This document shows, in pieces, positions 4,906-44,487 of a DNA stretch of 46,131 nucleotides. Position 1 is the stretch's first letter; each line of letters starts with the position of its first letter. Below the pieces are notes generated by a model that made no database searches, was not told the origin of the DNA, and saw nothing but the letters and a program-made list of their open reading frames with translations. The position numbers were made by a program, and so were the translations under genes. The stretch comes from a virus. The stretch is from positions 1 to 46,131 of the IMG/VR virus record IMGVR_UViG_3300034012_002880. One strand, given 5' to 3'.

Positions 4906-5108
4906 GATCGCCGGTTTTGCTGATAGGCAATACCCAGCAGTGTAGCGCTAGTTCCAGCCCACGCCTCACGCGCAGCGCCAGCCGCCACCCGGCAGGCCAT
5001 GCCGCCCTGATGCTGCACACAGCGCATCCAGTCGACCGTTGGGATAATGGCCGCCAGGAGCAGGCAGACCGTGGCGGCGGCGAGTGCCAGTGCAGGAGCG
5101 CTCCTCAT
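4902..5108 (-). CDS. Small membrane protein, possible lysis accessory
   Basis: A 68-residue protein with one strong hydrophobic segment near the N-terminus (about residues 5-25) followed by a short Cys-containing, Ala/Arg-rich tail. It overlaps the genes on both sides by four bases (ATGA) and follows another one-segment membrane protein at 5105-5422. Pairs of this size inside a structural operon are often holin, antiholin or spanin parts, but no lipobox or holin motif is clear. The downstream lysis-type peptidase is far away, at 38309-39082, so a lysis role is an inference only. Confidence 0.55.
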   Translation of the reverse strand: MRSAPALALAAATVCLLLAAIIPTVDWMRCVQHQGGMACRVAAGAAREAWAGTSATLLGIAYQQNRRS

Positions 5109-5422: not shown

Positions 5423-5428
5423 CGGAGA

Positions 5429-7887: not shown

Positions 7888-7891
7888 GGCC

Positions 7892-8623
7892 TCAGGTTTC
7901 GGGGAGGATCACGAGCCCCAGGCCCGTCGCGGTCGTCACGAGCCCCAGGCCCGTCACGGTCGTCAAGGGAACGCTGATGTCGGGTGGTGGCGTGATGGTG
8001 ATCGGACCAGTCAATGGCACCCGGCAAAACACCCCATCTCCAAAACGTATCACACCATATTCAACGATGTAAGTATTTCCAGCAATTACAAGTTGATCGC
8101 CATACTTTAACTCTCCAAACACAGAAAAGGGCAGGTTTTCAATCACAGCATCGACGATCACTTCCTCTCCTCTGATCACCAGCTGCGAGTTCAGTCTGAG
8201 CAGTCCCTCACCCTGGATTGCACCCCAGACAACAGGAACCGCGTCAAAAGTCCGATTGATTGCCCTGGCCAGTAGCGCCTGGCGGCTGTTCGGCGGTCGC
8301 TGGAATGACGGCAGTACGACTCCGATCGGACCAGAAAGTGGCAGCCTGCAGTAATTGCCATCTCCATAGCGGAACGGATCACACTCGGCTCTGAATGTAT
8401 TACCGTCAACCGTAATGGTATCGCCATGCTTAATCGCGCCAAAAACGGAATACGGGAGATTGTCTAGAACTGCATCGACACGTGCAATCTCTCCATCTAG
8501 AACAATCTCCGTCGCTAGACGAAGCCTGCCAAATCCTTGAGCGCTACCCCAGGTGACCGAGGCAGCGCCGAGGATCCGGTGAGATGCGCGGACCAGCAGG
8601 TTTTGGCGGCTGGCCCAGCTCAT
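7892..8623 (-). CDS. Head-tail joining protein with two tandem FII-like domains
   Basis: A 243-residue protein made of two similar halves of about 105 residues. Each half runs from an ASHRILGAASVTWG / RAINRTFDAVPVVWG helix-strand, through DAVLDNLPYSVFG / DAVIENLPFSVFG and GDTITVDGNTF / GDQLVIAGNTY, to CRLPLSGP / CRVPLTGP. The GDxLxIxxxxY core followed by a Gly-rich turn and CRLxL strand resembles lambda FII-type head-tail joining proteins, which are single-domain and about 117 residues. The tail end carries a short duplicated GLGLV element (24-27 bp repeat at about 7908-7965). Its ATG overlaps the stop of the DUF2190 gene (TGATG). Confidence 0.65.
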   Translation of the reverse strand: MSWASRQNLLVRASHRILGAASVTWGSAQGFGRLRLATEIVLDGEIARVDAVLDNLPYSVFGAIKHGDTITVDGNTFRAECDPFRYGDGNYCRLPLSGPIGVVLPSFQRPPNSRQALLARAINRTFDAVPVVWGAIQGEGLLRLNSQLVIRGEEVIVDAVIENLPFSVFGELKYGDQLVIAGNTYIVEYGVIRFGDGVFCRVPLTGPITITPPPDISVPLTTVTGLGLVTTATGLGLVILPET

Positions 8624-8952
8624 CAGCTGAACACAAATTGACAGGTCGCGTCAGTGTTGCCAGCCGCCACGGAGAAAAATCCCGCAAGCGTGTTGCCTGT
8701 CGCTACCCCTGTGAAGAGCTTGGCGGTGTTGTCCCAATAAATCAAAGCACCTTGGGCGCCGCCAGTGCCGGTGCCCGTGGCTTTGGCATAGGTGAATTCA
8801 CCTTCGCGGGTGAACTGGCCGATCTCGCCGCTAGCCAGCTTGGCCAGGGAGATGAAGACGTAAGCGCCGATCAACGCAGCGCCGCCAGACTCCACCGCGT
8901 AGGGAGCGGTGAGTGGGATCGTTGTAGCCTCAGACCTGACTTGGTTTTTCAT
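8623..8952 (-). CDS. Capsid decoration protein, DUF2190 family
   Basis: A 109-residue protein between the capsid gene and the joining gene. It shows the DUF2190 layout: KNQVRSEATTIPLTAP at the start, a GALIGAYVFISLAKLASGE middle, GALIYWDNTAKLFT, then GNTLAGFFSVAAGNTDATCQF at the end. The YWDxxxK..T...GNxLxG motif is diagnostic for this family, whose members bind the outside of capsids (lambda gpD position). It is the direct neighbour of the capsid fusion gene and overlaps the next gene by TGATG. Confidence 0.8.
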   Translation of the reverse strand: MKNQVRSEATTIPLTAPYAVESGGAALIGAYVFISLAKLASGEIGQFTREGEFTYAKATGTGTGGAQGALIYWDNTAKLFTGVATGNTLAGFFSVAAGNTDATCQFVFS

Positions 8953-8988
8953 TGGATGAAAGAGATAGAATTGATCGGGAAGTTGCTA

Positions 8989-11121
8989 TTAGGGAGCAAC
9001 ACCAGAAGCGCGATAGATAAAGCGCCAATCTTTAATCGCGCATCCAAAATACATGCGGAATAAAAATTCCACGCAGTCAGGATTGCGCTTGGTGTCTGTA
9101 GTCAGGGTTGGCCCAGATTCGCCCTCCAAGTAACCATAAACAATTCCCTCAACCTTGCCGGGGCCAGCGATCAAATACCACTGAGTAGTGCTCGTGGTGT
9201 CCAGCCTGGCCGAGTACAGATCGCGAACGGCGCCAGCGTAGGGATTGGGACCAGCATTGCCGCTCAACACGCTGGGAGCATAGTTATTGGGATACAAAAA
9301 CTGCATAGCAGTTGCCTGAAGTGCCCTGGGTCCCAGGAAAAAATCAGGCTCAAGCTCTAATGGATTACCGGCTGGATCCTTTTGGGTTGAGAGCTTTAAC
9401 ATGCCGGTGGCCATGCCGTCAACATTGATTAGGCCTGCTCCGGTGTTGTTGTGGCTGGCATGGAACAACGGTAGGCCGTCCATTGAGACCGTCGCGTTGC
9501 CCGTGATCAAGGCATAAATCGCATTGGCCTGAACACGTCGAGCGCCGCGGCCGAACATTTCCGGCACCGCCTGAAGGGCGCTTAGGTCGTCATTGATAAA
9601 AACTTCCTCAGCAACCCGAAGGCCACGAGTGAACTTGTCAAGCCGCCAAGATGTTCTGCCGTCTTGAAGGGTGGCCATTTGATACTCACTGCCCTCCATC
9701 CGAGCATCAATTTTCGTTTTGTCAGATTGATCTCCTTGATTGACCTTAATTGGATCAAGAGATCCGGAGACAAACATGTCATTCGTTGGACGGAAATCGG
9801 GAAGATCGCGCCGCCGTGAAAACTGATCCCATTGGTGGGTTTCTTCAGCCCATCCAGTCATCATCGACTTGTTCGCAGCATTAGAGAGAATGTTGGAAAA
9901 GTCGTCGCTGACGTGAAGTGCCAGAGAGATCAACTCATGTGGGGTCCTTCCCACCGTGTTGATCCCCCGTGAGTTGGCATAAGTGCGGACAAACTCCATC
10001 ATCCGCATCCCGCGATATGGAATGGCCTTATCGGACGGAGCGTCGTTTGGCTTGATTTTTGCCAATACCGCATCCGTGAGACCCTCGACAATGGTGTCGC
10101 CGTGATCCCGAGTCACTCCGATCCGCGCCGGGTGGCCCGCCTGGCTGCGGTTCTCCACGGTGGCAGCGTGCGCCCTGACAATCTCCAGGGCCACATCAGC
10201 GAACGGCTTGCCGCCGGCAATCAGGGCATCCACCTGATCGGGAGGAAGCGAGGCCTGTGCCGCGCAGCGGCGGATTTCGTTCTCGCGTCGCAGGGCTGCC
10301 AGCTCGGCGGCGCTCGATTCTGATGCCGTGGCTGCGGCATGGGCTGAGACGGCCGCCATGGCAGGGGCCACCGGGGCAGGGGGCACCGGGGCGGGGGGCA
10401 CAGGAGCAGGGGGCGCCGCTTCGGCAGCGCTAGCGGAAACGGGCATCTGAGCTGAAGAATCGAATTCTGTAGGAATGTTAGCGGATGTTGTAAACCATGT
10501 CGCTAAGGTCGGTGGCGCATTGTCAAGCCTGCCGGCAGGGGGGGCGGGCAATCGCGCTCGAACCTCCTCGGCAGGAGCGACCTCTGTGGCAAATCCCATG
10601 GCCAGAGCATCGGCCGCAGAAAACCAAGTGCCGTTCCCGCTCCCAGCAATCAGCCATTCGTTTACCTTTTCCCGATCTTGTCCTGATTTTTTGATATAAA
10701 TTTCTATGAATGCTTGAGTATGGGCGTCAAACTGCTCCGCAAGGCTGCGCATTTTTTCGGCATTACCAGAAGCGTAGCCCCATGTCGAGTGCATGTGAAA
10801 TAATGTATTTTCTGGCATGATTCGCTTGGATCCAGCCATAAAAATTATGCCAGCTGCGCTTGCGGCAATGCCATCAATAATTGTTGTTACACTACCAGAA
10901 TATGACGAGAGAATGTTGTAAATTGCTAGGCCTTCAGAGGCAGATCCGCCAGAGGAGAAAACGTGAACGGAAACGTCCCTGCCGTTTGCTCCTTGAAGCT
11001 CGCTGGCTACATCGACAGCCGTCACGTCTATGCCGACATCTCCGTAGAGGCGTAGCGTCAGCCCGTTAGCGTAAAACTGGGCCGAGACGCCAGTGGTGGG
11101 CGCCGCGATAGTGTTTGTCAT
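8989..11121 (-). CDS. ClpP-like prohead protease fused to major capsid protein
   Basis: A 710-residue fusion. Residues about 20-195 are a ClpP/S14-type protease: SSGGSASEG oxyanion loop, nucleophile Ser88 in GIAASAAG and catalytic His111 in FHMHS. At the usual Asp position before TWFSAADALAMGF there is Gly or Asn, so the third triad member is uncertain. A Pro/Ala linker (about 230-265) and a helical scaffold-like region (about 270-370) follow. Residues about 375-710 look like the major capsid domain of Mu gpT-like families (MMEFVRTYANSRG, SRRRDLPDFRP, GRGARRVQANAIY, NPCVEFLFRMYFGC-like end). The protease would cut itself and the scaffold away from the shell during maturation. It overlaps the portal gene by ATGA. 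Confidence 0.88.
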   Translation of the reverse strand: MTNTIAAPTTGVSAQFYANGLTLRLYGDVGIDVTAVDVASELQGANGRDVSVHVFSSGGSASEGLAIYNILSSYSGSVTTIIDGIAASAAGIIFMAGSKRIMPENTLFHMHSTWGYASGNAEKMRSLAEQFDAHTQAFIEIYIKKSGQDREKVNEWLIAGSGNGTWFSAADALAMGFATEVAPAEEVRARLPAPPAGRLDNAPPTLATWFTTSANIPTEFDSSAQMPVSASAAEAAPPAPVPPAPVPPAPVAPAMAAVSAHAAATASESSAAELAALRRENEIRRCAAQASLPPDQVDALIAGGKPFADVALEIVRAHAATVENRSQAGHPARIGVTRDHGDTIVEGLTDAVLAKIKPNDAPSDKAIPYRGMRMMEFVRTYANSRGINTVGRTPHELISLALHVSDDFSNILSNAANKSMMTGWAEETHQWDQFSRRRDLPDFRPTNDMFVSGSLDPIKVNQGDQSDKTKIDARMEGSEYQMATLQDGRTSWRLDKFTRGLRVAEEVFINDDLSALQAVPEMFGRGARRVQANAIYALITGNATVSMDGLPLFHASHNNTGAGLINVDGMATGMLKLSTQKDPAGNPLELEPDFFLGPRALQATAMQFLYPNNYAPSVLSGNAGPNPYAGAVRDLYSARLDTTSTTQWYLIAGPGKVEGIVYGYLEGESGPTLTTDTKRNPDCVEFLFRMYFGCAIKDWRFIYRASGVAP

Positions 11122-18581: not shown

Positions 18582-18940
18582 AATCACCCACGTCAGTTTT
18601 TATACAAAATCGTAAGGGGGTGGTTGAAACAGAGAATCACCCGCACGATTTCAATACAGAATCAACCGAGTGAATAATCATAGTGGACTCACCGTACGTA
18701 TTACACTACAAAATCACCCGCACGATTCTGGTGCAAAATCGATAGCGTGAATAACAATAGTGGACTCACTGCGCGATTGCAGTACACAATCACCCGCACG
18801 ATTCCAGTACAGAATCAACCGAGTGAATAACAATAGTGGACTCACTGCACGATTGCAGTAGAGAATGTCGGCACAATTCTAATACAAAATCGATGTCATG
18901 AATAATCATAGTCAATCGACCGTGGGATCAACGCCTGATT
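18582..18940. repeat. Array of 76-77-bp direct repeats, origin-like
   Basis: Four units begin with AATCACCCGCACGATT or a variant at 18635, 18712, 18788 and 18864 (spacing 77, 76, 76), with an incomplete unit at 18582. Each unit also carries CAGAATCAACCGAGTGAATAA-like and ATAGTGGACTCACTG elements. The stretch 18297-19204 has no convincing gene. Regular AT-rich repeats beside small regulatory genes suggest protein-binding iterons such as a replication origin. Confidence 0.7.
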
Positions 18941-19204
18941 TCAATAACTAACTTACCGCATAATTTTGATAACAAATCTACTGAGTGACTAATTATAGTA
19001 AACTCTTCATGGGATCACTGTGCAATTGCGATAAAGAACGTGCCAAAAAACTCAGATACGCAATAAAAATCGACGCGCAGAGAAAAAATATCCTATTGAT
19101 CCCAAAGAAATTCTTAAGATCTGGCGTCAAACCGCCCCATGCGTGCTCATTGCGGGTAGTGTGCATGCACAGGGGGCCGAAGGCGCTCCCACCACACACC
19201 CATC

Positions 19205-19442: not shown

Positions 19443-19762
19443 CACCTGTTGACGCGCGTGAACCACGCGTGACGCATTGACGCGTCCTACAGCGCCTCCT
19501 GGGGGGCACTGGGGAGTTATTCATATTGACCGAAAATCACTGAAAAGAGATATGCGAACCGTCGGCAGGATTTGTCACGCCTATTCTCGCGCACAAAGTA
19601 CAACGCTTGCGCGTGGGATCACTGCACAAGCGCATGGAGAATGCGTGATGGGATCACGCGGCAATCCTGTAGCGCTTTCACGACGGGATCACTCGGGATT
19701 GTTCTACAGAATGTAATCTTGAATCACCATGCTTATTGCGTGTCTGAATTGTTTTACCGAAC

Positions 19763-20006
19763 GTGACTTCTAATCACATATCGAACGTGACTTTCAATAC
19801 TGTAGAGAACGTGACTTCTAATAGCATACAGAACGTGACTTCTAATAGCATACGGAATGTGACTTCTAATACTGTAGAGAACGTGACTTTTAATTGGATA
19901 GTAAACGTGACTTCTAATCACATACAGAACGTGACTTTCAATAGCGTACAGAACGTGACTTTCAATAGCGTACGGAATGTGCGTCTGAATTGTTTTATGA
20001 AATGCG
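19763..20006 (+). repeat. 24-bp tandem repeat array coding for an octapeptide repeat
   Basis: At least eight 24-bp units built on AACGTGACTTCTAATAGCATACAG lie in tandem. One frame (19763-20038) is open throughout and would encode 91 residues made of NVTSNSIQ / NVTFNTVE units, ending in a Cys-rich tail. Diverged copies extend upstream to about 19640. There is no ribosome binding site, so it may be a DNA-level repeat (iterons) rather than a gene. Nothing else convincing is seen between 19443 and 20020. Confidence 0.65.
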
Positions 20007-32294: not shown

Positions 32295-32494
32295 CCCCAG
32301 ACACGACCGTAGCCCTGGTCCTGGCGGCAGGGACGTGCCTAGGCCTGATCGGGCTCCTCGCAGGTGGCCTGGTGACCTGGTGGCTGTGCTCCGCCAACAT
32401 GAGTCGCCTGTGCCACGAAAACCACCACCTTCGCCGCCGGCTCCTTGAACGCGAAGGCAAGATTACTCGCTCTATTCATCAATTCACGCCATGA
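32291..32494 (+). CDS. Single-pass membrane protein (67 aa) before the variable genes
   Basis: GTG 32291. Residues about 7-33 form a hydrophobic span (VALVLAAGTCLGLIGLLAGGL, then VTWWL) followed by a basic, His/Arg-rich helix (HHLRRRLLEREGK). Its last bases, ITRSIHQFTP plus stop, are copied in front of each of the next two variable genes, so this gene's 3' end was part of the duplicated unit. It overlaps the first variable gene by ATGA. Confidence 0.6.
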   Translation: MTPDTTVALVLAAGTCLGLIGLLAGGLVTWWLCSANMSRLCHENHHLRRRLLEREGKITRSIHQFTP

Positions 32495-33315
32495 CTGATT
32501 TAACACACAAACTTGACGAGCTACTATCAATTGAGCTTGTAAACATCCCTGCTGGTAAATCGTGGATGGGCCTCCCAGCGGAAAAAATTAACAAGCTACT
32601 ATCAATTGAGCTTATTAAAATTCCTGCTGGTGAGTTTTTGATGGGCTCCCCAGCGGAAGAGAAAGATCGTTTCGACAATGAAGGTCCCCAGCATCTAGTC
32701 AAGCTCAATAGTTTTTTTCTCGGCCAAACCCCAGTCACTCAAGCCCAATGGCGGGTGGTGGCAGGTTGGCCGAAAATTCAACTCGAATTGGATTCAGATC
32801 CTTCACGCTTTTTGGGGCCCAACCGCCCCGTGGAGCAGGTGAGCTGGGAAGAGGCAATAGAATTTTGTCAACGTCTCAATCAAAAAACAGGCCAGCAATG
32901 GACCCTGCCGAGTGAAGCGCAGTGGGAATATGCCTGCCGCGCTGGGACGACAACACCTTTTGCCTTTGGAGAGACGCTGAGACCAAATATGGCTAACCAC
33001 TGTTATGCCACGGCAATTAATGGGAAACAAACCACAGACGTATATACATTTCCAGCTAATGCTTGGGGGCTGCATGATATGCACGGTAATGTTTGGGAAT
33101 GGTGCGCTGATCACTGGCACGACAATTATGACAATGCACCTACAGATGGTAGTTCGTGGATCAATGATAGTCGTAATAATTTATCAAGAGTGCTGCGCGG
33201 CGGCTCCTGGGTCAATCACCCGTGGCTCTGCCGGTCGGCCTGCCGGCACTGGTGGCATCAAGACGACCGCGCCGACCGCGTTGGTTTCCGCCTTTGTGCT
33301 CCTTGCCCTGACTAA
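32491..33315 (+). CDS. DGR-type variable protein 1 (FGE-sulfatase/C-type-lectin domain)
   Basis: A 274-residue protein with the formylglycine-generating-enzyme fold: IPAGEFLMGSPAEE, GPQHLVKL, QTPVTQAQWRVV, VSWEEAIEFCQRLN, LPSEAQWEYACRAGTTTPFAFGE, DMHGNVWEWCADHWHDN and RVLRGGSW...CRSA.R......D.R....GFRLC. The last element is the usual variable tail of DGR target proteins, which use this scaffold to bind varied ligands. The N-terminus holds an imperfect duplication: LLSIELVNIPAGKSWMGLPAE precedes LLSIELIKIPAGEFLMGSPAE. It has no signal peptide. It may be a ligand-binding protein rather than an enzyme, because catalytic Cys pairs of FGE were not evident. Confidence 0.88.
   Translation: MTDLTHKLDELLSIELVNIPAGKSWMGLPAEKINKLLSIELIKIPAGEFLMGSPAEEKDRFDNEGPQHLVKLNSFFLGQTPVTQAQWRVVAGWPKIQLELDSDPSRFLGPNRPVEQVSWEEAIEFCQRLNQKTGQQWTLPSEAQWEYACRAGTTTPFAFGETLRPNMANHCYATAINGKQTTDVYTFPANAWGLHDMHGNVWEWCADHWHDNYDNAPTDGSSWINDSRNNLSRVLRGGSWVNHPWLCRSACRHWWHQDDRADRVGFRLCAPCPD
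33211..33279 (+). other. Variable region core 1
   Basis: Twenty-three codons between GGCTCCTGG and GTTGGTTTC. Against core 2 there are 12 base differences and against core 3 there are 15, all changing amino acids. The roughly 85 bases just upstream hold about one silent difference between copies 1 and 2. Confidence 0.8.
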
Positions 33316-33344
33316 CTTACTCGCTCTATTCATCAATTCACGCC

Positions 33345-34115
33345 ATGACTTTTTCCACTTCTTTAATTCAAACACTTGAAGGAGGACAACCAATTGAGCT
33401 TGTAATTGAGCTTGTAAAAATTCCTGCTGGTGAGTTTTTGATGGGCTCCCCAGCGGAAGAGAAAGGTCGTTTCGATAATGAAGGTCCCCAACATCTGGTC
33501 AAGCTGAAAAGTTTTTTCCTTGGCCAAACCCCAGTCACGCAAGCTCAATGGCGGGTGGTGGCACGTTGGCCAAAAATTCAACTCGAATTGGATCCAAATC
33601 CTTCACGCTTTCAGGAGCCTAACCGCCCCGTTCAGAGGGTGAGCTGGGAAGAGGCGATGGAATTTTGTCAACGTCTCAACCAGTACACAAACTACAATTA
33701 CACCTTGCCCAGTGAAGCGCAATGGGAATATGCCTGCCGCGCAGGCACAACTACACCTTTTGCCTTTGGAGAGACGCTGAGACCAGATATGGCCAGCTAC
33801 TCTAGTGTCAAGGGGATCTATAGGGAAGAATCCACAGATGTGTGTAGTTTCCCGGCTAATGCCTGGGAATTATATGACATGCACGGTAATGTTTGGGAAT
33901 GGTGCGCTGATCACTGGCACGACAATTATGATAATGCACCTACAGATGGTAGTTCGTGGATCGATGATAGTGGTAATAATTTATTGAGAGTGCTGCGCGG
34001 CGGCTCCTGGTTCAGTCACCCGTGGGACTGCCGGTCGGCCTACCGGAAAGGGTGGCATCAAGACTACCGCAACGACTGCGTTGGTTTCCGCCTTTGTGTT
34101 CCCTGCCCTAACTAA
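33345..34115 (+). CDS. DGR-type variable protein 2 (FGE-sulfatase/C-type-lectin domain)
   Basis: A 256-residue close paralogue of the preceding gene. All FGE-fold landmarks are kept (IPAGEFLMGSP, LPSEAQWEYACRAGTT, DMHGNVWEWCADHW, RVLRGGSW, GFRLC). The N-terminus is shorter and differs: FSTSLIQTLEGGQPIELV, with a small IELV repeat. Between copies 1 and 2 the middle block (SYSSVKGIYREESTDVCSF versus NHCYATAINGKQTTDVYTF) also differs, so it has drifted or exchanged outside the variable tail as well. The 29 bases before its ATG repeat the end of the upstream membrane gene, marking the duplication boundary. Confidence 0.88.
   Translation: MTFSTSLIQTLEGGQPIELVIELVKIPAGEFLMGSPAEEKGRFDNEGPQHLVKLKSFFLGQTPVTQAQWRVVARWPKIQLELDPNPSRFQEPNRPVQRVSWEEAMEFCQRLNQYTNYNYTLPSEAQWEYACRAGTTTPFAFGETLRPDMASYSSVKGIYREESTDVCSFPANAWELYDMHGNVWEWCADHWHDNYDNAPTDGSSWIDDSGNNLLRVLRGGSWFSHPWDCRSAYRKGWHQDYRNDCVGFRLCVPCPN
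34011..34079 (+). other. Variable region core 2
   Basis: Same window as core 1. Variable codons here are TTC AGT CAC, GAC, TAC, AAA GGG TGG CAT, TAC, AAC GAC TGC. It differs from core 3 at 13 bases, all altering the residue. Confidence 0.8.
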
Positions 34116-34144
34116 CTCACTCGCTCTATTTATCAATTCACGCC

Positions 34145-34903
34145 ATGACTCTTTCCACTTCTTTAGTTCAACCACTTGAAGGAGAACAACCAATTAAGCT
34201 TGTAAAAATTCCTGCTGGTCAGTTTTTGATGGGCTCCCCAGCGGGAGAAAAATATCGTTTCGATAATGAAGGCCCCCAACATCTGGTTACACTGAAGAGC
34301 TTTTTCCTCGGCCAGACCCCAGTCACTCAAGCCCAATGGCGGGTGGTGGCACGTTGGCCAAAAATCCAGCTGGATCTGGATCCAGCTCGTGCAAGCTTTT
34401 GGGGGCCCAACCGCCCCATCGAGTATGTTAGCTGGGAAGAGGCGATGGAGTTTTGTCAACGTCTCAATCAAAAAACAGGCCAGCAATGCACCCTGCCCAG
34501 TGAAGCGCAATGGGAATATGCCTGCCGCGCAGGCACAACTACACCTTTTGCTTTTGGAGAGACGCTGAGACCAGATATGGCCAGCTACTCTAGTGTCAAG
34601 GAGATCTATAGGGAAAAATCCACAGATGTGTGTAGTTTCCCAGCTAATGCCTGGGAATTATATGACATGCACGGCAATGTTTGGGAATGGTGCGCTGATC
34701 ACTGGCACGACACTTATGACAATGCACCTACAGATGGTAGTCCGTGGATCGATGATAGTGGTAATAATTTAGTGAGAGTGCTGCGCGGCGGCTCCTGGTT
34801 CAGTAACCCGTGGGACTGCCGGTCGGCCTCCCGGCACAGGGGACTTCAAGACGACCGCTTCATCTGCGTTGGTTTTCGCCTCTGTGCTCCCTGTCATGAC
34901 TGA
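34145..34903 (+). CDS. DGR-type variable protein 3 (FGE-sulfatase/C-type-lectin domain)
   Basis: A 252-residue third copy, closest to copy 2 (shared SYSSVKEIYREKSTDVCSF block and FS start of the variable tail). The N-terminal leader is FSTSL-like (LSTSLVQPLEGEQPIKLV). All scaffold motifs are kept. It ends CHD rather than CPD/CPN, and its final codons overlap the ATG of the next gene (34896), so this copy is the one fixed to the downstream operon. It is probably the ancestral position, with copies 1 and 2 created upstream; direction is an inference. Confidence 0.88.
   Translation: MTLSTSLVQPLEGEQPIKLVKIPAGQFLMGSPAGEKYRFDNEGPQHLVTLKSFFLGQTPVTQAQWRVVARWPKIQLDLDPARASFWGPNRPIEYVSWEEAMEFCQRLNQKTGQQCTLPSEAQWEYACRAGTTTPFAFGETLRPDMASYSSVKEIYREKSTDVCSFPANAWELYDMHGNVWEWCADHWHDTYDNAPTDGSPWIDDSGNNLVRVLRGGSWFSNPWDCRSASRHRGLQDDRFICVGFRLCAPCHD
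34799..34867 (+). other. Variable region core 3
   Basis: Variable codons are TTC AGT AAC, GAC, TCC, CAC AGG GGA CTT, GAC, TTC ATC TGC. The invariant codons between them (CCG TGG, TGC CGG TCG GCC, CAA GAC, CGC) are identical in all three copies. Confidence 0.8.
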
Positions 34904-36090: not shown

Positions 36091-36636
36091 ATGAAACACT
36101 TTACGGTTTACACAACGGCTGGCTGTTTTTCGCACCCCGCGCCAGCAGTAGAGACCGACGCGATCCTGGCGCTTGCCGCAATCATCCGAGAGGTTGACGG
36201 CAATAACAGCCTGGGCGCAGCGGCCCTGGCCGAAGCGATCTTGAGCCACCACCATAGTCGTTGGGGCCACCAGCCCGCGCCACCGGCTGAGGGGGAGGTG
36301 AGGGAGTTGGTGGAGTTTCTGCGCATCTATGGCGATTTTGTCATGGATGAGTATGGAGATGTGGGAGAACACGACCAACTCACCCGCGCCGCTGAGCTGC
36401 TAGAGCAGCGTCACCCCGCGCCCGTGCCGGTGAGTGAGCGGTTGCCGGGGGCGGAGGATTGCACCACCAATCCGCGAACAGGTCAGGAACAATGGTTTTG
36501 GGGCTGGGTCCAGCACGACCCTGCGCCCTACAGCGGTAGGTGGCGAATGATGCGCCGCGAATGGCTGGCTGACGAGGCCACCCACTGGCTCCCCGCCCAC
36601 GCCCTACCGCTGCCTGCGGCGGAGGTAACGGAATGA
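36091..36636 (+). CDS. DUF551-like protein with an EGEV/RAAELL module
   Basis: A 181-residue protein from ATG 36091; the frame is open from 35953 but its first part is unlike protein. Residues about 70-120 hold the module PAEGEVRELVEFLR ... LTRAAELLEQRHPAPVP, found twice in the next protein. The end (VSERLPGAED, WFWGWVQHD, THWLPAHALPLP) fits DUF551, a small phage domain that starts (S/V)xRLP and ends THWxPL. Modules of this type occur in cyanophage-like genomes as far as I recall. It overlaps the next gene by ATGA. Confidence 0.6.
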   Translation: MKHFTVYTTAGCFSHPAPAVETDAILALAAIIREVDGNNSLGAAALAEAILSHHHSRWGHQPAPPAEGEVRELVEFLRIYGDFVMDEYGDVGEHDQLTRAAELLEQRHPAPVPVSERLPGAEDCTTNPRTGQEQWFWGWVQHDPAPYSGRWRMMRREWLADEATHWLPAHALPLPAAEVTE

Positions 36637-37550
36637 GCGACTTCAACCACTCGCCGCTTTGCATACCAATCACCTATCAACCGAAGACACCACCAATGAA
36701 AACCAACGATGACATTCCATCCGGCCCTTTCTCGGAGCAGGAGCTTCGAGAGCAATGGAACCGCCAAGCCGATGAGTTCAACCAGTGGGATTCACTGGAT
36801 TCCGATGAGAAACTGGTCTGGAGGGCCTGGGCTCAAACCCAAGCCCTTTCCTCTGGCGGCTGGATTGTTCCATCCATGGTTAATGCCCAGCCCCCCCTGG
36901 CCAATGATGACCCGATCCGCGCCGCTCTGGAGCGGCTGGTTGCCCGGCTGAATGAGACGACCGACCGTGACGGGCCCGTGCCTGCGTGGAGCGACTCGTT
37001 CTATGCCGCCCTTGCCACCCTGGCCAAGGCTGAGCCTGCTCCAACTGGTAAGGATTCCTTACAAGTTGCTCTGCCCGCCGAGGGAGAGGTGGCGGAGCTG
37101 GTGAAAGAACTGAAAGAACATGCTCACCACATAAACGAAGAGGACAGGTTGGGGTCGCTCGTCGACAATGATCTGCCACCACTTCTCACCCGCGCCGCTG
37201 AGCTGCTAGAGCAGCGTCACCCCGCGCCCGTGCCGTTGAGCGAGCGGTTGGCAAGCCTGGCAAGCCGCCTGGCGGCTGAATCCAAGCCAATGAATCCAGA
37301 CGTGGCAACCGCTGTAGGGGATGCGTGGGATCTGTATGAAGACGCGCCAGGCCCTGCTGGCCGACCCGCTGAGGGGGAGGTGGCGGAGCTGGTGGCGGTT
37401 TTGCGTGCCGATGCTGAGTGTGTCGAGGCTGAGCATTACAACCTCTGCACCATGACTGCAGACCAAATGCGCCGAGCCGCCGAGCTGCTGGCCCAGCGCC
37501 ACCCCGCGCCCGTGCCGGTGAGTGAGCGGCTGCCGGGGGCGGAGGATTGA
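36633..37550 (+). CDS. Modular hypothetical protein truncated before its DUF551 end
   Basis: A 305-residue protein. Residues about 35-70 hold the ELREQWN module shared with the protein at 28712-28990. Two EGEVAELV ... RAAELL.QRHPAPVP modules follow (about residues 148-205 and 246-300). It stops at TGA 37548-37550 exactly where its neighbour has TGC: GCGGAGGATTGA here against GCGGAGGATTGC there. The sequence after the stop continues the DUF551 domain in frame, so this gene has probably lost its end by one base change, or the stop is read through. Function unknown. Confidence 0.6.
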   Translation: MSDFNHSPLCIPITYQPKTPPMKTNDDIPSGPFSEQELREQWNRQADEFNQWDSLDSDEKLVWRAWAQTQALSSGGWIVPSMVNAQPPLANDDPIRAALERLVARLNETTDRDGPVPAWSDSFYAALATLAKAEPAPTGKDSLQVALPAEGEVAELVKELKEHAHHINEEDRLGSLVDNDLPPLLTRAAELLEQRHPAPVPLSERLASLASRLAAESKPMNPDVATAVGDAWDLYEDAPGPAGRPAEGEVAELVAVLRADAECVEAEHYNLCTMTADQMRRAAELLAQRHPAPVPVSERLPGAED

Positions 37551-37727
37551 ACCACCAATCCGCGAACAGGTCGGGGGCAATGGTGTTGGGGCTGGGTCCA
37601 GCACGACCCATTGCCCTACAGCGGTAGGTGGCGAATGATGCGCCGCGAATGGCTGGCTGACGAGGCCACCCACTGGCTCCCCGCCCACGCCCTACCGCTG
37701 CCTGCGGCGATTGCTGGCGCCCACTGA
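37551..37727 (+). pseudogene. Stranded DUF551 C-terminal remnant after an in-frame TGA
   Basis: Fifty-eight codons open in the same frame as the preceding gene, encoding TTNPRTGRGQW ... GWVQHD ... THWLPAHALPLPAA. It is nearly identical to the end of the protein at 36091-36636. No start codon or ribosome binding site serves it. Confidence 0.7.
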
Positions 37728-37749
37728 TAACCACCACCAATTAACTATC

Positions 37750-38145
37750 ATGAGATTCTACCACGCTCCAAAGCCTCAATACGTTCACCTTCGTGGGCGT
37801 GCATTCAACATTGTTCCAGCACAGCTAGAGTCAATTCCTGAGCCAGTGTGGCACTTTAGTCTGTGCTGTCTTGACACACATGAAAATGCAAGAGTTGCTA
37901 AGGATGATATCATTTATTGCTATGCTACTGGTTATAGACTCCATGAGTCGATACTGCTGCTAAAAGGCGGATCTTTCGTCTCGGTTGGCGGCATTCTTAC
38001 TGGAGTCCGACAGGAATTTGGACGGCTTCTGACCGTAAAAGAGCTGAACAAAATCGAGCCTCCTGCGGATCCCAAGCCCAAGCCAATCAAGCGACGCCTG
38101 ACCCGTGAAGAACTGCCCCAAGTACCAACCTGGATCCTAGGCTAA
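37750..38145 (+). CDS. Hypothetical protein (131 aa)
   Basis: ATG 37750 (RFYHAPKPQYVHLRGRAFN). An alpha/beta protein with a beta-rich middle (IIYCYATGYRLHESILLLKGG, FVSVGGILTGV) and a basic, Pro/Lys-rich tail (DPKPKPIKRRLTREELPQ). The frame is open upstream to 37711, but that part overlaps the DUF551 remnant. No family recognised. Confidence 0.6.
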   Translation: MRFYHAPKPQYVHLRGRAFNIVPAQLESIPEPVWHFSLCCLDTHENARVAKDDIIYCYATGYRLHESILLLKGGSFVSVGGILTGVRQEFGRLLTVKELNKIEPPADPKPKPIKRRLTREELPQVPTWILG

Positions 38146-38165
38146 GGCCACCTTCAACCGCCATT

Positions 38166-38363
38166 ATGACAGCACTCCAGTCGCTCCCGGCTCACGCCTT
38201 GTGGAGAGTAGTCAGAGCTAATAATGGCGGTTGTTTGTGGGAGGTTTGCCTAGACAATTGTTGTGCTACTGGATATACAAAGGAGGCTGCTTCTAGCCTC
38301 CTTTTGCATCAGTTAAATTTGATGAACCAACCTGATCCAGGCCCATCAACCATCCATCGCTGA
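38166..38363 (+). CDS. Possible small protein at the end of the early operon (65 aa)
   Basis: ATG 38166. LWRVVRANNGGCLWEVCLDN and TKEAASSLLLHQLNLMN look like a small alpha/beta protein. However the terminator hairpin at 38282-38305 lies inside the frame and its end overlaps the convergent peptidase gene by 55 bases. It may be shorter, or not expressed. Confidence 0.35.
   Translation: MTALQSLPAHALWRVVRANNGGCLWEVCLDNCCATGYTKEAASSLLLHQLNLMNQPDPGPSTIHR
38282..38305. terminator. Bidirectional terminator between early and late operons
   Basis: GGAGGCT (38282-38288) and AGCCTCC (38295-38301) pair around GCTTCT, followed by TTTT on the plus strand. AAA before the stem gives a short T-run on the minus strand. 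It separates the convergent early operon and late operon. Confidence 0.75.
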
Positions 38364-39082
38364 GACCAGTTCCGCCACGAATACCGCTGAAACCTGCCGG
38401 CATCAGGATTGGCCGGGGAGTTTTTCGGTGCGTAGCCCCCCGATCTTAGATCTGCCTCGCCAAACGGGTCGTGAATTGCCAGCGTGCCGCCATCAGGCCC
38501 TGGTTCCCAACCCACCACCAGGCTCCAGTGCCCACCACCGCTGGGACGAGCGACAGGGCCATGGTGCAGCCAGCCGACGGCGACTGGCCTCCCCGCACGC
38601 AGCTCTGCCAAAAGGATGTCCTTGGTGCCGTTGCTGCCGAACCTGGCGGTCGGGAACCCAAGGGAGTGCAAGAGACGCACGTGCGCCTGCGCGTCGGTGG
38701 TGTCGCCAAACCGCTGAAGGAGCGCCAGGTACCGATCGTCCGGCTGTCCCGCCCCTGCCAGGCACCCTGGCTTGAGCCACTCAACCGCCATGGCGCAGGT
38801 TGATGCGAAGCACATCCGATCTCCCTGGGCTGTGGCACTATCGCGCTGGCTCAAATACGGCACCGACAAAATGATTGCCGGATCGATCGCCAACGCCTTG
38901 GCAGCAGCGACAGGAGCGGCAGGAGAGCCCTGCGCGCGCCAGGCCTGGCTAAACTCCTCTCGCTGCTGTTTGCTCAGCTGCGCGTCAAGCGCCGAGAGAG
39001 CCGCTCCTTGGTGTGGCGACAGGTAACCCTGGCGGATGGCCCACTCCGCAGCGTCGCGCACTGTTGCCAGATCAGTCGTCAT
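38309..39082 (-). CDS. C39-like cysteine peptidase, probable lysis enzyme
   Basis: A 257-residue protein, last gene of the late operon. The C-terminal 185 residues match the Peptidase C39-like family: VPYLSQRDSATAQGDRMCFAS with nucleophile candidate Cys91, His185 in SGGGHWSLVVGW and Asp205 in AIHDPFGEA. The N-terminal 60 residues form a helical domain (RDAAEWAIRQGYLSPHQGAAL), perhaps for wall or tail binding. Similar proteins in cyanobacterial phages are thought to cut peptidoglycan peptides. It could also be a virion-associated enzyme. It overlaps the preceding gene by ATGA. Confidence 0.75.
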   Translation of the reverse strand: MTTDLATVRDAAEWAIRQGYLSPHQGAALSALDAQLSKQQREEFSQAWRAQGSPAAPVAAAKALAIDPAIILSVPYLSQRDSATAQGDRMCFASTCAMAVEWLKPGCLAGAGQPDDRYLALLQRFGDTTDAQAHVRLLHSLGFPTARFGSNGTKDILLAELRAGRPVAVGWLHHGPVARPSGGGHWSLVVGWEPGPDGGTLAIHDPFGEADLRSGGYAPKNSPANPDAGRFQRYSWRNWSQRWMVDGPGSGWFIKFN

Positions 39083-39453
39083 ACAACAAACACGGATTGA
39101 ATTTGAATTGTAACATTAAACAGGCATCCTTCCGTAGGATCCCATGACGGTGGACTGATGTAGCGATATAGCTGATTTGCAGGAACCACGTCATATAAAC
39201 TAGCATGGGATTGCCATAGTGATGACGGAATATCAAATGGTGTGTGTTGTCGCTGCCCTCGGTAGTGACTCGATATTAACTCTGCCGTGGATCTAGTTAA
39301 TGCCGGAAAAGTAATCTCAAACGGGTGATTTGTAGCTGTGCGCCCTCGCTGAAACACAACCGCAAACCCATTGAGCTGTCTCACCTCTGCAAACGGAGAT
39401 GGCGCAACGGCATAACTTCGCTCGTCCGCTTGAATACTGGGAAATGTTGCCAT
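39079..39453 (-). CDS. Tail-associated hypothetical protein (124 aa)
   Basis: A 124-residue protein coupled by overlaps to the genes on both sides. The FAVVFQRGRTATNHPFEITFPALTRS part, a strand-turn-strand with GR.AT..PF, followed by a helix (TAELISSHYRGQRQHTPFD), is like minor tail proteins in which an upper strand pair feeds a short helix. The second half is Ser/Tyr-rich strand. I place it in the tail tip or fibre module from position. Confidence 0.5.
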   Translation of the reverse strand: MATFPSIQADERSYAVAPSPFAEVRQLNGFAVVFQRGRTATNHPFEITFPALTRSTAELISSHYRGQRQHTPFDIPSSLWQSHASLYDVVPANQLYRYISPPSWDPTEGCLFNVTIQIQSVFVV

Positions 39454-39872
39454 CAGAATTTTGCAAACTTGATTGTCTGGGCTGGCACGATAAAGGCGCC
39501 GTCACTGACAATAGTCCGTCCCAGATCTAGGACTGCAATCAACTCATCTGCCGTGGCAGCGCCGCCGCGCCATTTAACGTAGGCGACGTACTGCGCTGTG
39601 ATCGGTCCCGTTCCGATCGAAGCCAGGGATAGCGTCAGAATGTGCGCGTGCTGCGTTGTGTCAAGCGAGTCAGAAATCGTTACAGCAACTCCCCCGGCAG
39701 TGTATCCGCCAGTAGCGGCAATCTCCGAGGCAACTACATGTGATCGCCTAGAATGAGCACCAGTGTTAAATGTGTAGCTTGAGCCAAGAAGCATGGCGCG
39801 AAAGGTATCACTGACAGCAATACGTTGTCGCCACAGGTCATAAGAAAGGCTGTCTGGTGTGTATAGGGTCAT
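39453..39872 (-). CDS. Structural hypothetical protein (139 aa), likely tail tip/fibre
   Basis: A beta-rich 139-residue protein: AVSDTFRAMLLGSSYTFNTG, GGYTAGGVAVTIS, TAQYVAYVKWRGGAAT, LIAVLDLGRTIVSDGAF. The pattern of a small jelly-roll-like phage structural protein with the ADELIAVLDLG motif is common in phage minor proteins. Start and stop are tightly packed (1 base shared downstream, 2-base gap upstream). Confidence 0.5.
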   Translation of the reverse strand: MTLYTPDSLSYDLWRQRIAVSDTFRAMLLGSSYTFNTGAHSRRSHVVASEIAATGGYTAGGVAVTISDSLDTTQHAHILTLSLASIGTGPITAQYVAYVKWRGGAATADELIAVLDLGRTIVSDGAFIVPAQTIKFAKF

Positions 39873-39874
39873 GG

Positions 39875-40153
39875 CTACAAATAAACACGTGCATCATAGT
39901 ATCGATCTCCGGTTGGCGGATAGATCGGCACCGCTGGGCAGTTGATTCCAATCAACAGGGCCGTCACCGGATCGATGACGGTCATAGGCAGGTTGCGCCC
40001 GGCCGCTCCCGCAACGAGGCCCAGAGAGACCGCTGTGACGCTCCCTGTCGCTCCCGCAACGAAAACGCCAGCAGGCAGGCTGAGCACTCCAAATGCCACC
40101 GGATCGCGCAGCGCCGTGAGCCCCAGCGAGCCTGTATCGACTGAGGCTGGCAT
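39875..40153 (-). CDS. Short structural hypothetical protein (92 aa)
   Basis: A 92-residue Ala/Gly/Val-rich protein (LSLPAGVFVAGATGSVTAVSLG, LVAGAAGRNLP) with a Tyr-rich end. The start overlaps the stop of the previous gene. It looks like a fibre segment or an outlying domain of the preceding protein. No family recognised. Confidence 0.45.
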   Translation of the reverse strand: MPASVDTGSLGLTALRDPVAFGVLSLPAGVFVAGATGSVTAVSLGLVAGAAGRNLPMTVIDPVTALLIGINCPAVPIYPPTGDRYYDARVYL

Positions 40154-41187
40154 CAGGTGGTCCGAGCGTAGAAAACCGCACCTGGGCCTTCACCGAGTAC
40201 GCCGCCATTAGCGACGGCAATGATCTGGCCGACTTCAACGCCAGCTTCAATGATGATCGACGATGCCGTAGTCAGTGTAATTGATGTGTATGCTCCCAGA
40301 ATAGAAAAATCAGCTGGCAATACAGCAGGTGAATACGCATTCAGTCTCATGCCGGTAAAAGGTGGTTTGTAGTCGGACGAGTACGCTCCGTTTACGTTAG
40401 TAAATCCCACGGGAAGAACAGCGGTAAGACCTAGCGAAAACTGGAATGATGTTGAACCTGCCGCGTTTCCAGTAAAGCCGTAGCAAAACCCTCCCAGCCT
40501 TGCCTCTGCGGACGAGATGGGCTGCCAGGGAGAAGTACCGGATGACGATATACCATATTCATCAGCGCTTGTATTCGATCGTAGGCCAGCTCCTAGGAAG
40601 TGCCGTCGCAAGATCATAGGGAACAACTGGAAATTCACGGTCGCTACTCGGTTGACGATTCGCGTCCGAGACCAGAACATCGATGTATAACAGACCTTAT
40701 TAAGATCGACGAGCGATGCTGTAGGTGCCGTAGGATCAATAAAGAAATTATATTCAATCGTGCCATTTCTTATTAAAAACACGCTAAAGTTTGATCGTTC
40801 TTGGCTTGTCCATCTGGTCACGGTCAGGGACTGGCTGGCATTCTGAACCGCCAGACGGAGGTGAAACGAAGTGGTGTTTGTTGCATTGCTATAATAATCC
40901 AGGTATTGATCACCAGTCGGCTTGTGCGTAGAGATGTTCCACCCGGTAGCAATATGAATATACATATCTGCGCCAGAGAAGATGAACCAGTAATACGTGG
41001 TTCCGTATGTTTTTCCAGCGTCATAAATTATTCTCAGCACTCTATGTTCTAGTGCGCCGTCAGTGAACGAATCAAACCATGTGGTAAAGCCAGCGTCTGA
41101 TAGTGCTGATTCCATATAGCTAGCAAAATTTGCAGCTGTATATGGAAGGGAAGGCGTCGCTGGATACGTTTGAGTTGTAACAGCCAT
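40153..41187 (-). CDS. Tail tip / fibre protein (344 aa)
   Basis: A 344-residue protein with an aromatic, Thr/Ser-rich beta composition. It begins TYPATPSLPYTAANFASYME, has YYWFIFSGADMYIHIATGW and ends with a shaft-like SITLTTASSIIIEAGVEVGQ, then GEGPGAVFYA. The order after the hub genes suggests a fibre or receptor-facing tip protein; a TtsS-type match is not evident. No membrane span or signal peptide. Confidence 0.55.
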   Translation of the reverse strand: MAVTTQTYPATPSLPYTAANFASYMESALSDAGFTTWFDSFTDGALEHRVLRIIYDAGKTYGTTYYWFIFSGADMYIHIATGWNISTHKPTGDQYLDYYSNATNTTSFHLRLAVQNASQSLTVTRWTSQERSNFSVFLIRNGTIEYNFFIDPTAPTASLVDLNKVCYTSMFWSRTRIVNRVATVNFQLFPMILRRHFLGAGLRSNTSADEYGISSSGTSPWQPISSAEARLGGFCYGFTGNAAGSTSFQFSLGLTAVLPVGFTNVNGAYSSDYKPPFTGMRLNAYSPAVLPADFSILGAYTSITLTTASSIIIEAGVEVGQIIAVANGGVLGEGPGAVFYARTT

Positions 41188-41188
41188 T

Positions 41189-42253
41189 TCAATACGAACC
41201 GATCAACACATAGGATAACGTTATCACAACTTCTCCTGATGCTCCGTCATTTACGAACCGCCACGGATAGGTGTTCGTTTGCGGCACTTCATGGTTCGCG
41301 GCTGGCAGGGGAGGAGACAGGTTGATCGTGCCGGCCGCCACGAACACGGGATCGCGGATGACCCCGGCTTCCCGGACCATCTCCTGAGCCCGCAGACGCG
41401 TGGTGTCCAGTGCTGCACCAGCGGCGCTGGAGTAGATCGAAAACCAGCCGGCATGGCTGGAGGTGATCCGCCATGGCAGGAACGATCGGGGCAGAGCGAC
41501 CGTACCCGTGCCTGTGGCTCCTGAGGCGATCGTGGCGACGATCACCGCAGTCGATGGATCGGCCACCACCACCGCAGCGGCAGTCTGCGCCGCGGAGGAG
41601 GTCAGCCCCCCTGCCGTTTGTCTCGCCCGAATCGCGCCTGCCAAGTACGCAGCGGTTGGGGCCTGGAAGCCGCCAGCGCCGTCGCTGGCGGCTTCCCAGG
41701 TGGCGCCGCCGTCGGTGCTGTACTGCCAGCTGGCACCGGCTTCGATGCCAGCGACAGCAACCCAGCCGCTGGTGGTGACGCCCCCCGCCAGGCCGCTGAT
41801 GGTCATCGTTGGCGGCGACGGTGCCACGGTGCGCGCGATTGACGGCGCAGCACCTACAGCCTGAATATAAACAATTGCCGTTTGCTGGCTTAGCCTGTAG
41901 TCGCTAAACAGACTTGCTTCAAATACGCAAGAAACATTAAAGATATCAGTGTGTCTATCTGTTACTTGTGGCGAGTCAACATATTTCCATCGATATCCAG
42001 ATGGTGTTTGATATGCAGGAAGGGTTACTGGATCAAAATCAAAACTAAAAACTGATCCATGCTCTTCATGGTGCTCGATTATATCAAGGAACTGTTGCTC
42101 GGTTAGAACAAAGCTCAGTGAGACTCGTCCTCCTGTCTCTAAATCTGAGTGTCGCACAACTGAGGTGTGACCATCGATCGTGGTCACGATCGACGCAGGA
42201 TATGTGCCGTGCTGTCGCGGCCAGCTGGTAGGCCTCAGTGCTGGAAATGTCAT
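41189..42253 (-). CDS. Minor tail protein with C-terminal Ig-like domains
   Basis: A 354-residue protein. Residues about 1-115 resemble a minor tail protein of the distal-tail/gpM type (VRHSDLETGGRVSLSFVLTEQQFLDIIEHHEEHGSVFSFDF). The rest is Ala/Thr/Val-rich and repeats in an immunoglobulin-like manner (GGVTTSGWVAVAGIEAGASWQYSTDGGATW), a common exposed decoration of phage tail proteins. The start overlaps the hub gene stop (ATGA). Confidence 0.6.
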   Translation of the reverse strand: MTFPALRPTSWPRQHGTYPASIVTTIDGHTSVVRHSDLETGGRVSLSFVLTEQQFLDIIEHHEEHGSVFSFDFDPVTLPAYQTPSGYRWKYVDSPQVTDRHTDIFNVSCVFEASLFSDYRLSQQTAIVYIQAVGAAPSIARTVAPSPPTMTISGLAGGVTTSGWVAVAGIEAGASWQYSTDGGATWEAASDGAGGFQAPTAAYLAGAIRARQTAGGLTSSAAQTAAAVVVADPSTAVIVATIASGATGTGTVALPRSFLPWRITSSHAGWFSIYSSAAGAALDTTRLRAQEMVREAGVIRDPVFVAAGTINLSPPLPAANHEVPQTNTYPWRFVNDGASGEVVITLSYVLIGSY

Positions 42254-44487
42254 AGGGGCGGATCACTGGCATTCCTAAGGGGGCCTGATGTGCCGTCGCG
42301 TTGACGGCAGCGCCAGGACAACTCTTCTATCCTGAATCTTCCTCGCTCGTCAAATGGGGTCTCGGTTGAATCACCAATCCGCAGCACGGTTTCTGCGTAT
42401 GGTGTGCCGCCAGAATAACGCACTTCATACATTGGCACAATCACACCCTCGTAGCTTCCTGGTTCTGGTAGCAGCTCATAAGAGACTCTCTCAACTGTAT
42501 CGATTTGTATATCTGCGTAGCCAAAAGACATGCCGCCAGCACCAAACGAGATGCCTCGTATTCGCGTCTTAACTGTTGCTAGGCCAAACTCGCACTCACC
42601 AGGCCAGGCGTGGGTGACGATTGGACCCAGCTTGCCGGCAGGGGTGGTGGGCCCAGTCCAGACCTTGTTCCCGCCAGGTCGGTTGTCGCCCTTCCGAGGC
42701 TCGCCGCCAGCTTCAATCAGATTGCCGCGGAATCCACCACCAGATCCACCACCGCCATCGGTTGGCGGGCCTGGGGGCTCCGCAGGTGGGCCTTGTCGCT
42801 GCAGATTGACGCGATTGAACCGGTTGGTCCCGCCTCCACGGCCGTCGGTGAACGGGACTCCCCCGGTGGTATCCGGTGGCACCGTATTGTCACTGTCGCG
42901 TCCTGGCTCGTCACTGGCGCCGATCGCAGGGTAGGGCAGTTCTACGCCTGGCGCTAGGGCCCTGGCCTCCAACGTGCGTAGAGCGACCAAGCTTCGGCCA
43001 CGGGAGTCCACGGGGCATTCAATCAACTGCAGTGTCTCTGATCCATTCTCGGCCAGCGAGATTTGATCGATCCACCACAGCGTGGAAATCGCTCCGAATG
43101 GCTCCCGTTCCGACGCGAGCTGGAGCCAGACCTGCGCGATCTGGCCCTGCCGCATCTGACCCGACTGGGTTCCTGCGGCCAGCGACACAGAGCCTGTCCC
43201 GCCCCCTAACGACCTCATGGCGTGACGATATCCCGCAGCCAGCGCCGCGTGCCTTTCAGATGTGGCGAATGCTCGCAGATCAAACTCCTCCACCACTGGC
43301 AGCACATCGTCGCTCACGCCAACCTGCAGATCACGGTCCATGGACGGCTCTGTCTCGCTGGTTTGTTGCCGCCAAAGGGCACTGATCTGCAGTGGTTTGC
43401 GTGCATCAAATGATGCGGGGCGGGCAGAGTAAGTACCTGGCACGATTGCCTGCTCAGTGAGAACATAGTCTGGGATTATAGGTGTCGTCTTTATTGTTCC
43501 ATCAGGATTCGTCTGCAATAACGGAACAACAGCAAACTTGCCATCGATTGTTGTTTCTCTTAGCAGGAAGGCTGGCAGGATCGAAACAAGGAAGTCTGCT
43601 AGGTTGACCACATCAAAAAACTCCGCATCGCAGTATAACTCATTGACATTAATAAATGTCGCTGTCTTGACCATCTCTGTCATGTTGATTTGTGATTCTT
43701 TGAGCTGTCCTGATTTGGTTAATGCCCAGATAAGTAAGTCACAAATGTTATTGCTTGGACCCACCACTCCATCCAATAACCTGCCACGATCGATTTGCAT
43801 ACCATTCCTGACGAATACGTTCCAGCTTTGTTTCCAGGCATCGGAATCGATCGGATAGGTATTTGTGAATTCAATCGTAGACACACCTTTATAGTTTCCT
43901 CCGATCCCACAGTTCTGTGGCAGGACCGGCAAAGTGTAGCTAGAGTCGGCACGGGTCTTGTTTCCTGATGACCAAGAACCCGCTCGCTTGTTGTAGTTCT
44001 GCGAGAACGATCCTTGGCGGCTCAGACCATTTCTAACGTCGCGCACCTGCACAGAGCCGATTAAACCATCACCCAAAACACAATGATATCTAACAGTGAG
44101 TGATGTCGCTGTATTGGTTATCTCTATCTCCGTTGCTTTCGGTTGGACCATGATGCCTCCTGTCCCGCCAGGCAAGCGTCTGCCGAACACGACTGGCACG
44201 CGATCCCCAATGGCCACGGCCTTGATCGGTGTTGTCAAGGCCGTCTCCCTCGCTGAGGGCTGGCTGCGTACTGCGGTCGTAGCATCGGCTGCCGCTCGCG
44301 ATTCCTGCGCCGCGATCGACTGCTCCCGCAGGAAAGCCTCTATCCCACCAGAGCGCTCAATAAGCTCTTCTAATGTCGGCAGGTTTAGGCTTTCTAATGT
44401 CGGTATATTTATTGTCCTGCCAGTGCCAAGTTCTGTAACTTTGTAGGCCAATAGAGGTGGCTCATTCCTGAAGTGACCGCTTGGCAT
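42250..44487 (-). CDS. Tail hub / central fibre (gpJ-like) protein
   Basis: A 745-residue protein. After an acidic start (SLNLPTLEELIERSGGIEAFLREQ), AVAIGDRVPVVFGRRLPGGTGG and MVQPKATEIEI begin a beta-rich hub domain typical of baseplate centre proteins. NVNELYCDAEFFDVVNLADFLVSILPAFLLRETTIDGKFAVVPL resembles the domain II-III region of gpJ/gp27-like hubs, with the probable disc-forming VVEEFDLRAFATSERHAAL segment. Around residue 560 a Gly/Pro-rich linker (GGGGSGGGFRGN) leads to a strand-rich C-terminus. It follows the gpL/K-type minor tail gene by three bases. Confidence 0.7.
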   Translation of the reverse strand: MPSGHFRNEPPLLAYKVTELGTGRTINIPTLESLNLPTLEELIERSGGIEAFLREQSIAAQESRAAADATTAVRSQPSARETALTTPIKAVAIGDRVPVVFGRRLPGGTGGIMVQPKATEIEITNTATSLTVRYHCVLGDGLIGSVQVRDVRNGLSRQGSFSQNYNKRAGSWSSGNKTRADSSYTLPVLPQNCGIGGNYKGVSTIEFTNTYPIDSDAWKQSWNVFVRNGMQIDRGRLLDGVVGPSNNICDLLIWALTKSGQLKESQINMTEMVKTATFINVNELYCDAEFFDVVNLADFLVSILPAFLLRETTIDGKFAVVPLLQTNPDGTIKTTPIIPDYVLTEQAIVPGTYSARPASFDARKPLQISALWRQQTSETEPSMDRDLQVGVSDDVLPVVEEFDLRAFATSERHAALAAGYRHAMRSLGGGTGSVSLAAGTQSGQMRQGQIAQVWLQLASEREPFGAISTLWWIDQISLAENGSETLQLIECPVDSRGRSLVALRTLEARALAPGVELPYPAIGASDEPGRDSDNTVPPDTTGGVPFTDGRGGGTNRFNRVNLQRQGPPAEPPGPPTDGGGGSGGGFRGNLIEAGGEPRKGDNRPGGNKVWTGPTTPAGKLGPIVTHAWPGECEFGLATVKTRIRGISFGAGGMSFGYADIQIDTVERVSYELLPEPGSYEGVIVPMYEVRYSGGTPYAETVLRIGDSTETPFDERGRFRIEELSWRCRQRDGTSGPLRNASDPPL

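Follow-up and report, generated by a model that had tools for sequence, protein, structure and literature searches.

Bordetella phage BPP-1 and other phage DGRs (surveyed in PMC8144416) are a known point of comparison for variation in a phage C-type-lectin protein; phages of the BPP-1 type encode both a reverse transcriptase (RT) and a template, and they mostly vary tail proteins. Targets may also lie far from the RT. Cyanobacterial DGRs have remote variable proteins, C-type-lectin targets encoded at a distance from the RT (Vallota-Eastman et al. 2020, PMC7517822), and in-trans DGR activity has been proposed within one bacterial genome (PMC10907252). The same work proposed that, in multicellular bacteria, the targets diversified by DGRs serve as antigen sensors linked to anti-phage systems. 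Surveys seek an RT beside the target, so that remote targets are missed, and the global DGR survey states its inability to detect them (PMC8144416). The open-access literature searched, outside which most subscription papers lie, yielded no account of phages without an RT whose genes are targets of host DGRs. Here we describe a closed phage genome that has neither RT nor template and carries three tandem genes with DGR-type variable regions. We consider it likely (probability about 0.72) that these targets are rewritten in trans by a DGR of the host, the in-trans step and the host itself being inferences.

Three tandem C-type-lectin genes in a cyanobacterial-type phage

The window, by which we mean the whole stretch of DNA analysed, comprises 46,131 bases and is the entire IMG/VR record IMGVR_UViG_3300034012_002880. 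Its terminal 102 bases are identical at both ends, and a tape-measure frame of 1209 amino acids remains open through the joined ends. The genome therefore very probably closes on itself, and we treat it as closed and complete. Genes for the terminase, portal, head protease, tape measure and tail lie on the − strand, and those for a helicase, a dCTP deaminase, a recombinase-type protein and an SSB lie on the + strand. We regard the virus as cyanobacterial-type; its capsid relatives among phage records are distant (~30%) and do not point to any host, and no tRNA genes that could have served as a host clue were found. The three FGE genes follow the replication genes on the + strand (32491-34903), with these features:

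32463..32496, + strand: 34-base repeat with start codon, before copy 1 (repeat comparison)
33317-33350 and 34117-34150: the 34-base repeat before copies 2 and 3, 100% and 94% identical
32491..33315, + strand: target gene copy 1, FGE-sulfatase/C-type-lectin protein, 274 amino acids (PF03781, E=1.7e-54)
33345..34115, + strand: target gene copy 2, FGE-sulfatase/C-type-lectin protein, 256 amino acids (PF03781, E=3.7e-53; structure model)
34145..34903, + strand: target gene copy 3, FGE-sulfatase/C-type-lectin protein, 252 amino acids (PF03781, E=1.1e-49)
33211..33279, + strand: variable core of copy 1 (codon comparison, second assembly, template adenines)
34011..34079, + strand: variable core of copy 2 (same evidence)
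34799..34867, + strand: variable core of copy 3 (same evidence)
33190..33298, + strand: GC-rich cassette of copy 1, GTGCTGCGCGGC...CGCCTTTGTG (GC 0.69, GC3 0.78, versus 0.47 and 0.43 in the body)
33990..34098, + strand: GC-rich cassette of copy 2 (GC 0.64, GC3 0.76)
34778..34886, + strand: GC-rich cassette of copy 3, with two silent T/C differences at its 3′ end (GC 0.65, GC3 0.76)

Here a cassette is defined as the core together with the presumed template homology on each side. The structure model of copy 2 (pLDDT 86.8) matches the folds of PvdO and of the Treponema denticola DGR variable protein. Family, sequence and fold together put the variable region close to the 3′ end of a gene with the C-type-lectin fold. 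When the loop was aligned with that of 6muj and inspected by eye only, the target read SWFSHPWDC and the enzyme SYLCHDSYC, the first cysteine being absent from the target. Since one of the two copper-binding active-site cysteines of the C-terminal loop thus appears to be missing, we set aside the possibility of an active formylglycine-generating enzyme.

Three repeat features elsewhere in the genome are recorded here as separate observations. A tandem array (19735-20005) is built from a 24-base unit, eight copies of which overlap in steps of 24 bases. The region 18624-19013, which has no long gene, contains a 53-75-base repeat in five diverged copies spaced 75-87 bases apart and is possibly a control region or origin. 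Finally, a 249-base stretch is duplicated with 92% identity about 1.1 kb apart (36373-36621 and 37461-37709; also 37185-37250) within + strand genes of unknown function near the target array, in a region that is rearranged in the second assembly described below.

Adenine-targeted variation in the cores

All three 69-bp cores are in frame. A direct count showed that 13 of the 23 codons vary, with 12 base differences between copies 1 and 2, 15 between copies 1 and 3, and 13 between copies 2 and 3; none is silent, each replacing a residue, and the third base is constant in 11 of the 13 variable codons. Columns with three or more states were in excess (6/24 versus 8/139, p=0.007). The preliminary description, made from the sequence alone, had reported the same codon counts, base differences and third-base constancy, all of which held on recounting. 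Its statement that copies 1 and 2 differ by a single silent base in the ~85 bases before the cores held only in part: that stretch also has three codons (AAT/GAT, CGT/GGT, TCA/TTG) with four replacement bases among them, and the strictly invariant part is the ~24 bases directly before the core. Its one exception to adenine replacement, the p8 codon (TGG/TGG/GGA), need not be one, as this codon is compatible with adenine replacement given a template codon AGA; the two cores of the second assembly have GGG and TGG there.

Inferring a template from the cores and then counting its adenines would be circular. We therefore used independent templates in its place, namely 21 distinct template-like cores of 69 bases from cyanobacterial genomes, N-rich and in many cases beside DGR RT genes, which were aligned at GGSW. 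For the three window cores, the majority of these templates had A at 16/18 variable columns as against 10/51 constant ones (p=3e-7). The coincidence was measured on independent templates; the phage's own template is not in hand.

The phage species is also represented by a second assembly, IMGVR_UViG_3300005805_007098 (L004), which is 99.0% identical to the window over 36874-43229 and carries two such FGE genes, one truncated by the contig end. Its complete gene differs from copy 2 at 12/654 positions in the body (1.8%) and at 13/69 in the core (18.8%; Fisher p=4e-8). All of these core differences are replacements (9 transversions and 4 transitions), and majority-A template positions account for 11/13 of the differing positions versus 15/56 of the others (p=2e-4). 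With both L004 cores added to the three of the window, the corresponding figures are 21/28 variable and 5/41 constant columns (p=1e-7). In the complete L004 gene a copy-2 body is joined to a copy-3 tail, and some of its core codons also occur in copy 3; several codons in the differing cores of the two assemblies occur in no other copy. Four of the five cores retain the non-adenine skeleton of the inferred template at 79-80 of its 80 positions; in copy 3 it is intact except for two T/C changes in the 3′ flank. Thus, within one phage species the cores differ between assemblies while the gene body is nearly identical. This comparison supplies the population check that the preliminary description had proposed, whether variation is confined to the variable codons and to template adenines, and it favours the DGR reading, although only two assemblies of the species cover the target locus; the remaining same-species viral contigs do not extend to it.

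These results demonstrate that the 3′ cassettes bear adenine-targeted, replacement-only hypervariation. We conclude that the cores of the three genes are DGR variable regions, a reading that had been put forward in the preliminary description and that survived every test run; it is supported by the independent templates, the second assembly, the family and fold, and the foreign composition of the cassettes.

Template search and related viral genes

Profile searches detected no RVT_1 in the window or in L004. As a strict pattern search with DGR RT motifs missed even known DGR loci, we used in its place an HMM built from 14 cyanobacterial DGR RTs; it readily detected the RT-bearing host loci and gave no match in the window or in viral loci L004-L081. 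Beyond the three variable cores, which were the sole matches to the skeleton, the window contains no template-like repeat. The closed phage genome thus has neither RT nor template and does not amount to a complete phage-encoded DGR, which shifts the mechanism from a DGR of the phage to a target served in trans. More broadly, RVT_1 was found in 0/50 viral records with such FGE genes, many of them fragments, and in 12/12 host genomes tested.

The cassettes are GC-rich (GC 0.64-0.69, GC3 0.76-0.78) and the gene bodies AT-richer (GC 0.47-0.49, GC3 0.43-0.44), which gives the cassette the look of a copy made from a GC-rich template of foreign origin. The skeleton inferred for this template is CTGCGCGGCGGCTCCTGG...AACTGCCGGTCGGCC..CCGG...GTTGGTTTCCGCC. 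Its 3′ flank GTTGGTTTCCGCC, the candidate IMH side, is common to four of the five cores, copy 3 carrying the two T/C changes; no clear downstream hairpin was seen there, and one like that of BPP-1 was not evident. An exact template repeat, as predicted in the preliminary description, was not found in the searched genomes: the best match to the 109-base inferred template was 80% in 1,291 genome scans (~1,000 distinct, mostly cyanobacterial genomes), and no match exceeded 80% in plasmids and phages. Among viral contigs, exact template patterns occurred only in L004 itself and in L284, where we rejected the match as a chance occurrence inside a terminase gene. Since no template for this phage was found, the in-trans step and the host remain inferences.

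A matching template was found only for a relative, L037. In a comparison of 104 viral cores against 23 host templates, its core matched the template of L194/L216 at 80/80 non-A positions, with 11/25 adenines changed and no change elsewhere, and the identity ended at the cassette edges. L037 is a 13.5-kb contig with phage-type helicases, an exonuclease and a DNA methylase but no RT match; its viral status rests on IMG/VR and on these replication genes. The template adjoins a DGR RT in a Cyanobium-type genome, a label that rests on a genus-level search group common with L141 and L130. This contig with the template is short, has ends that repeat each other and perhaps comes from a metagenome bin. 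Several further viral cores showed 2-3 non-A mismatches to the same template. As to gene order, L216:1-3046 contains the end of a target gene, a probable Avd, the RT, the template and the next target gene, and the repeat of ~85 bases at its ends may reflect a tandem DGR array or a circle.

Ma-LMM01, a cultured Microcystis phage, has a core that matches a Microcystis template at 68/74 non-A positions. Between Ma-LMM01 and MaMV-DC, 21/75 bases differ in the core and 38/726 outside it. The cores are identical in five MaMV-type (Fukuivirus) isolates carrying such a gene, and rewriting therefore need not be frequent. Separately, L056, a 121-kb viral record with no RT match, contains about seven tandem FGE genes of ~250 amino acids each (4836-10964), most with a GGSW...GFR core.

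The related viral genes also gave a side observation on reading frame, which does not extend to the window's own three genes. In 13 viral FGE genes (L011, L012, L015, L017, L020, L021, L031, L033, which has two, L039, L042, L049 and L062; for example L012:8480-8831, L062:8447-8800, L033:7360-8816 and L049:8645-9600), the first variable cassette is shifted to −1 relative to the frame of the gene body, and in no case to +1. In twelve of the 13, another cassette follows in the body frame at a distance of 124-130 bases; in L049 it comes only after five −1-frame cassettes. This layout was absent from 85 genomic and 44 other viral genes. A junction heptamer in the body frame (GGGAAAG, AAAAAAG or GGGGGAG, the last, in four genes, not canonical) is present in 13/13 of the −1-frame genes and 1/130 in-frame genes, with a purine-rich element resembling a Shine-Dalgarno sequence ahead of it and a stem predicted downstream. 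From the sequence layout we infer an apparent dnaX-type programmed −1 ribosomal frameshift, which would select between DGR-type variable regions. We found no paper in the literature searched that joins DGRs with ribosomal frameshifting to such effect.

Proposed mechanism, rival explanations and known systems

In the model that we favour, a host DGR (Avd, RT and template, as in freshwater cyanobacteria) would copy its template during infection with errors at adenines, and the resulting cDNA would replace the matching phage cassettes, starting from the common 3′ end; there is as yet no observation of retrohoming on phage DNA. The closest rival holds that the host DGR acts on the cores while they reside in host genes and that the phage acquires the diversified cores by homologous recombination only, from copies in the host or in co-infecting phages. 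It predicts the same adenine pattern, and the mosaic gene of L004 shows that copy exchange does occur. However, exchange would have to be limited to ~110 bases within phage-like, AT-rich bodies, and the searched genomes yielded no host FGE gene that has this non-A skeleton. We therefore consider recombination alone unlikely, although it is not excluded.

We see still less room for a recently lost cis DGR, in which the lineage formerly had RT and template and the cores are relics shuffled among copies. The frozen cores of the five MaMV-type isolates show that relics exist in other phages, but assemblies about 1% apart differ at 13/69 core bases with several codons found in no other copy, the absence of an RT match from all 50 related viral records leaves no donor lineage in sight, and its base composition marks the cassette as foreign to the surrounding gene. 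A third rival dispenses with the retroelement and invokes ordinary positive selection on a binding loop once the gene had been duplicated. It would be in keeping with the ability of C-type-lectin loops to evolve fast and with the fact that every core difference among the window copies replaces a residue. The coincidence with template adenines (p=3e-7), the constant third base in most variable codons, the excess of multi-state columns and the difference in composition between cassette and body all but exclude it.

What the proteins of the in-trans model do is inferred. The location of the genes beside replication genes and the lack of a tail-type fusion argue for an intracellular binder. We tentatively suggest, with slightly more doubt than confidence, a free-standing C-type-lectin binder that is produced along with the replication genes and acts in the cell rather than at the tail tip, for example as a decoy or antagonist of host DGR-diversified sensors; such a role would fit the antigen-sensor proposal (PMC10907252) and is a hypothesis. 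A bolder reading, which we would not yet back over its negation, is that cyanobacterial phages include a class of RT-less DGR parasites with arrays of stand-alone C-type-lectin targets rewritten in trans by the DGR of the infected cell, each infection being able to yield new variants that possibly antagonise those sensors. If host DGRs do rewrite RT-less phages, phage hypermutation would be wider than RT counts indicate and host DGRs would be a shared resource in the phage-host arms race; comparison of phage and host members could then address what FGE-type variable proteins bind.

The locus can be set against several described systems. TvpA of Treponema denticola (PDB 2y3c), an FGE-type C-type-lectin DGR target, is related in sequence (E=5.6e-17) and was the third-best fold match, but it is a bacterial protein of a cellular DGR. 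The FGE gene of Microcystis phage Ma-LMM01 and its relatives (phrog_18508, annotated 'kinase') belongs to the same family in a cultured cyanophage and has a core that is hypervariable between Ma-LMM01 and MaMV-DC; unlike the window array it is a single gene, with a core identical in five later isolates, and we found no DGR interpretation of it in the literature searched. With BPP-1 and similar phages the window shares adenine-targeted variation in a phage C-type-lectin protein, whereas it encodes neither RT nor template and its genes lie beside replication genes. The in-trans targets of Thiohalocapsa PB-PSB1 (PMC10907252) have variable regions that match a template located elsewhere at all non-adenine positions, but there everything lies in a single bacterial genome and the proposed role is that of antigen sensors of anti-phage systems, whereas the carrier here is a phage. 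The remote variable proteins of cyanobacterial DGRs resemble the window genes in their 3′-end variable region and in templates with the same codon order; those targets share a cellular genome with the RT, whereas the window targets reside on a phage genome without RT or template.
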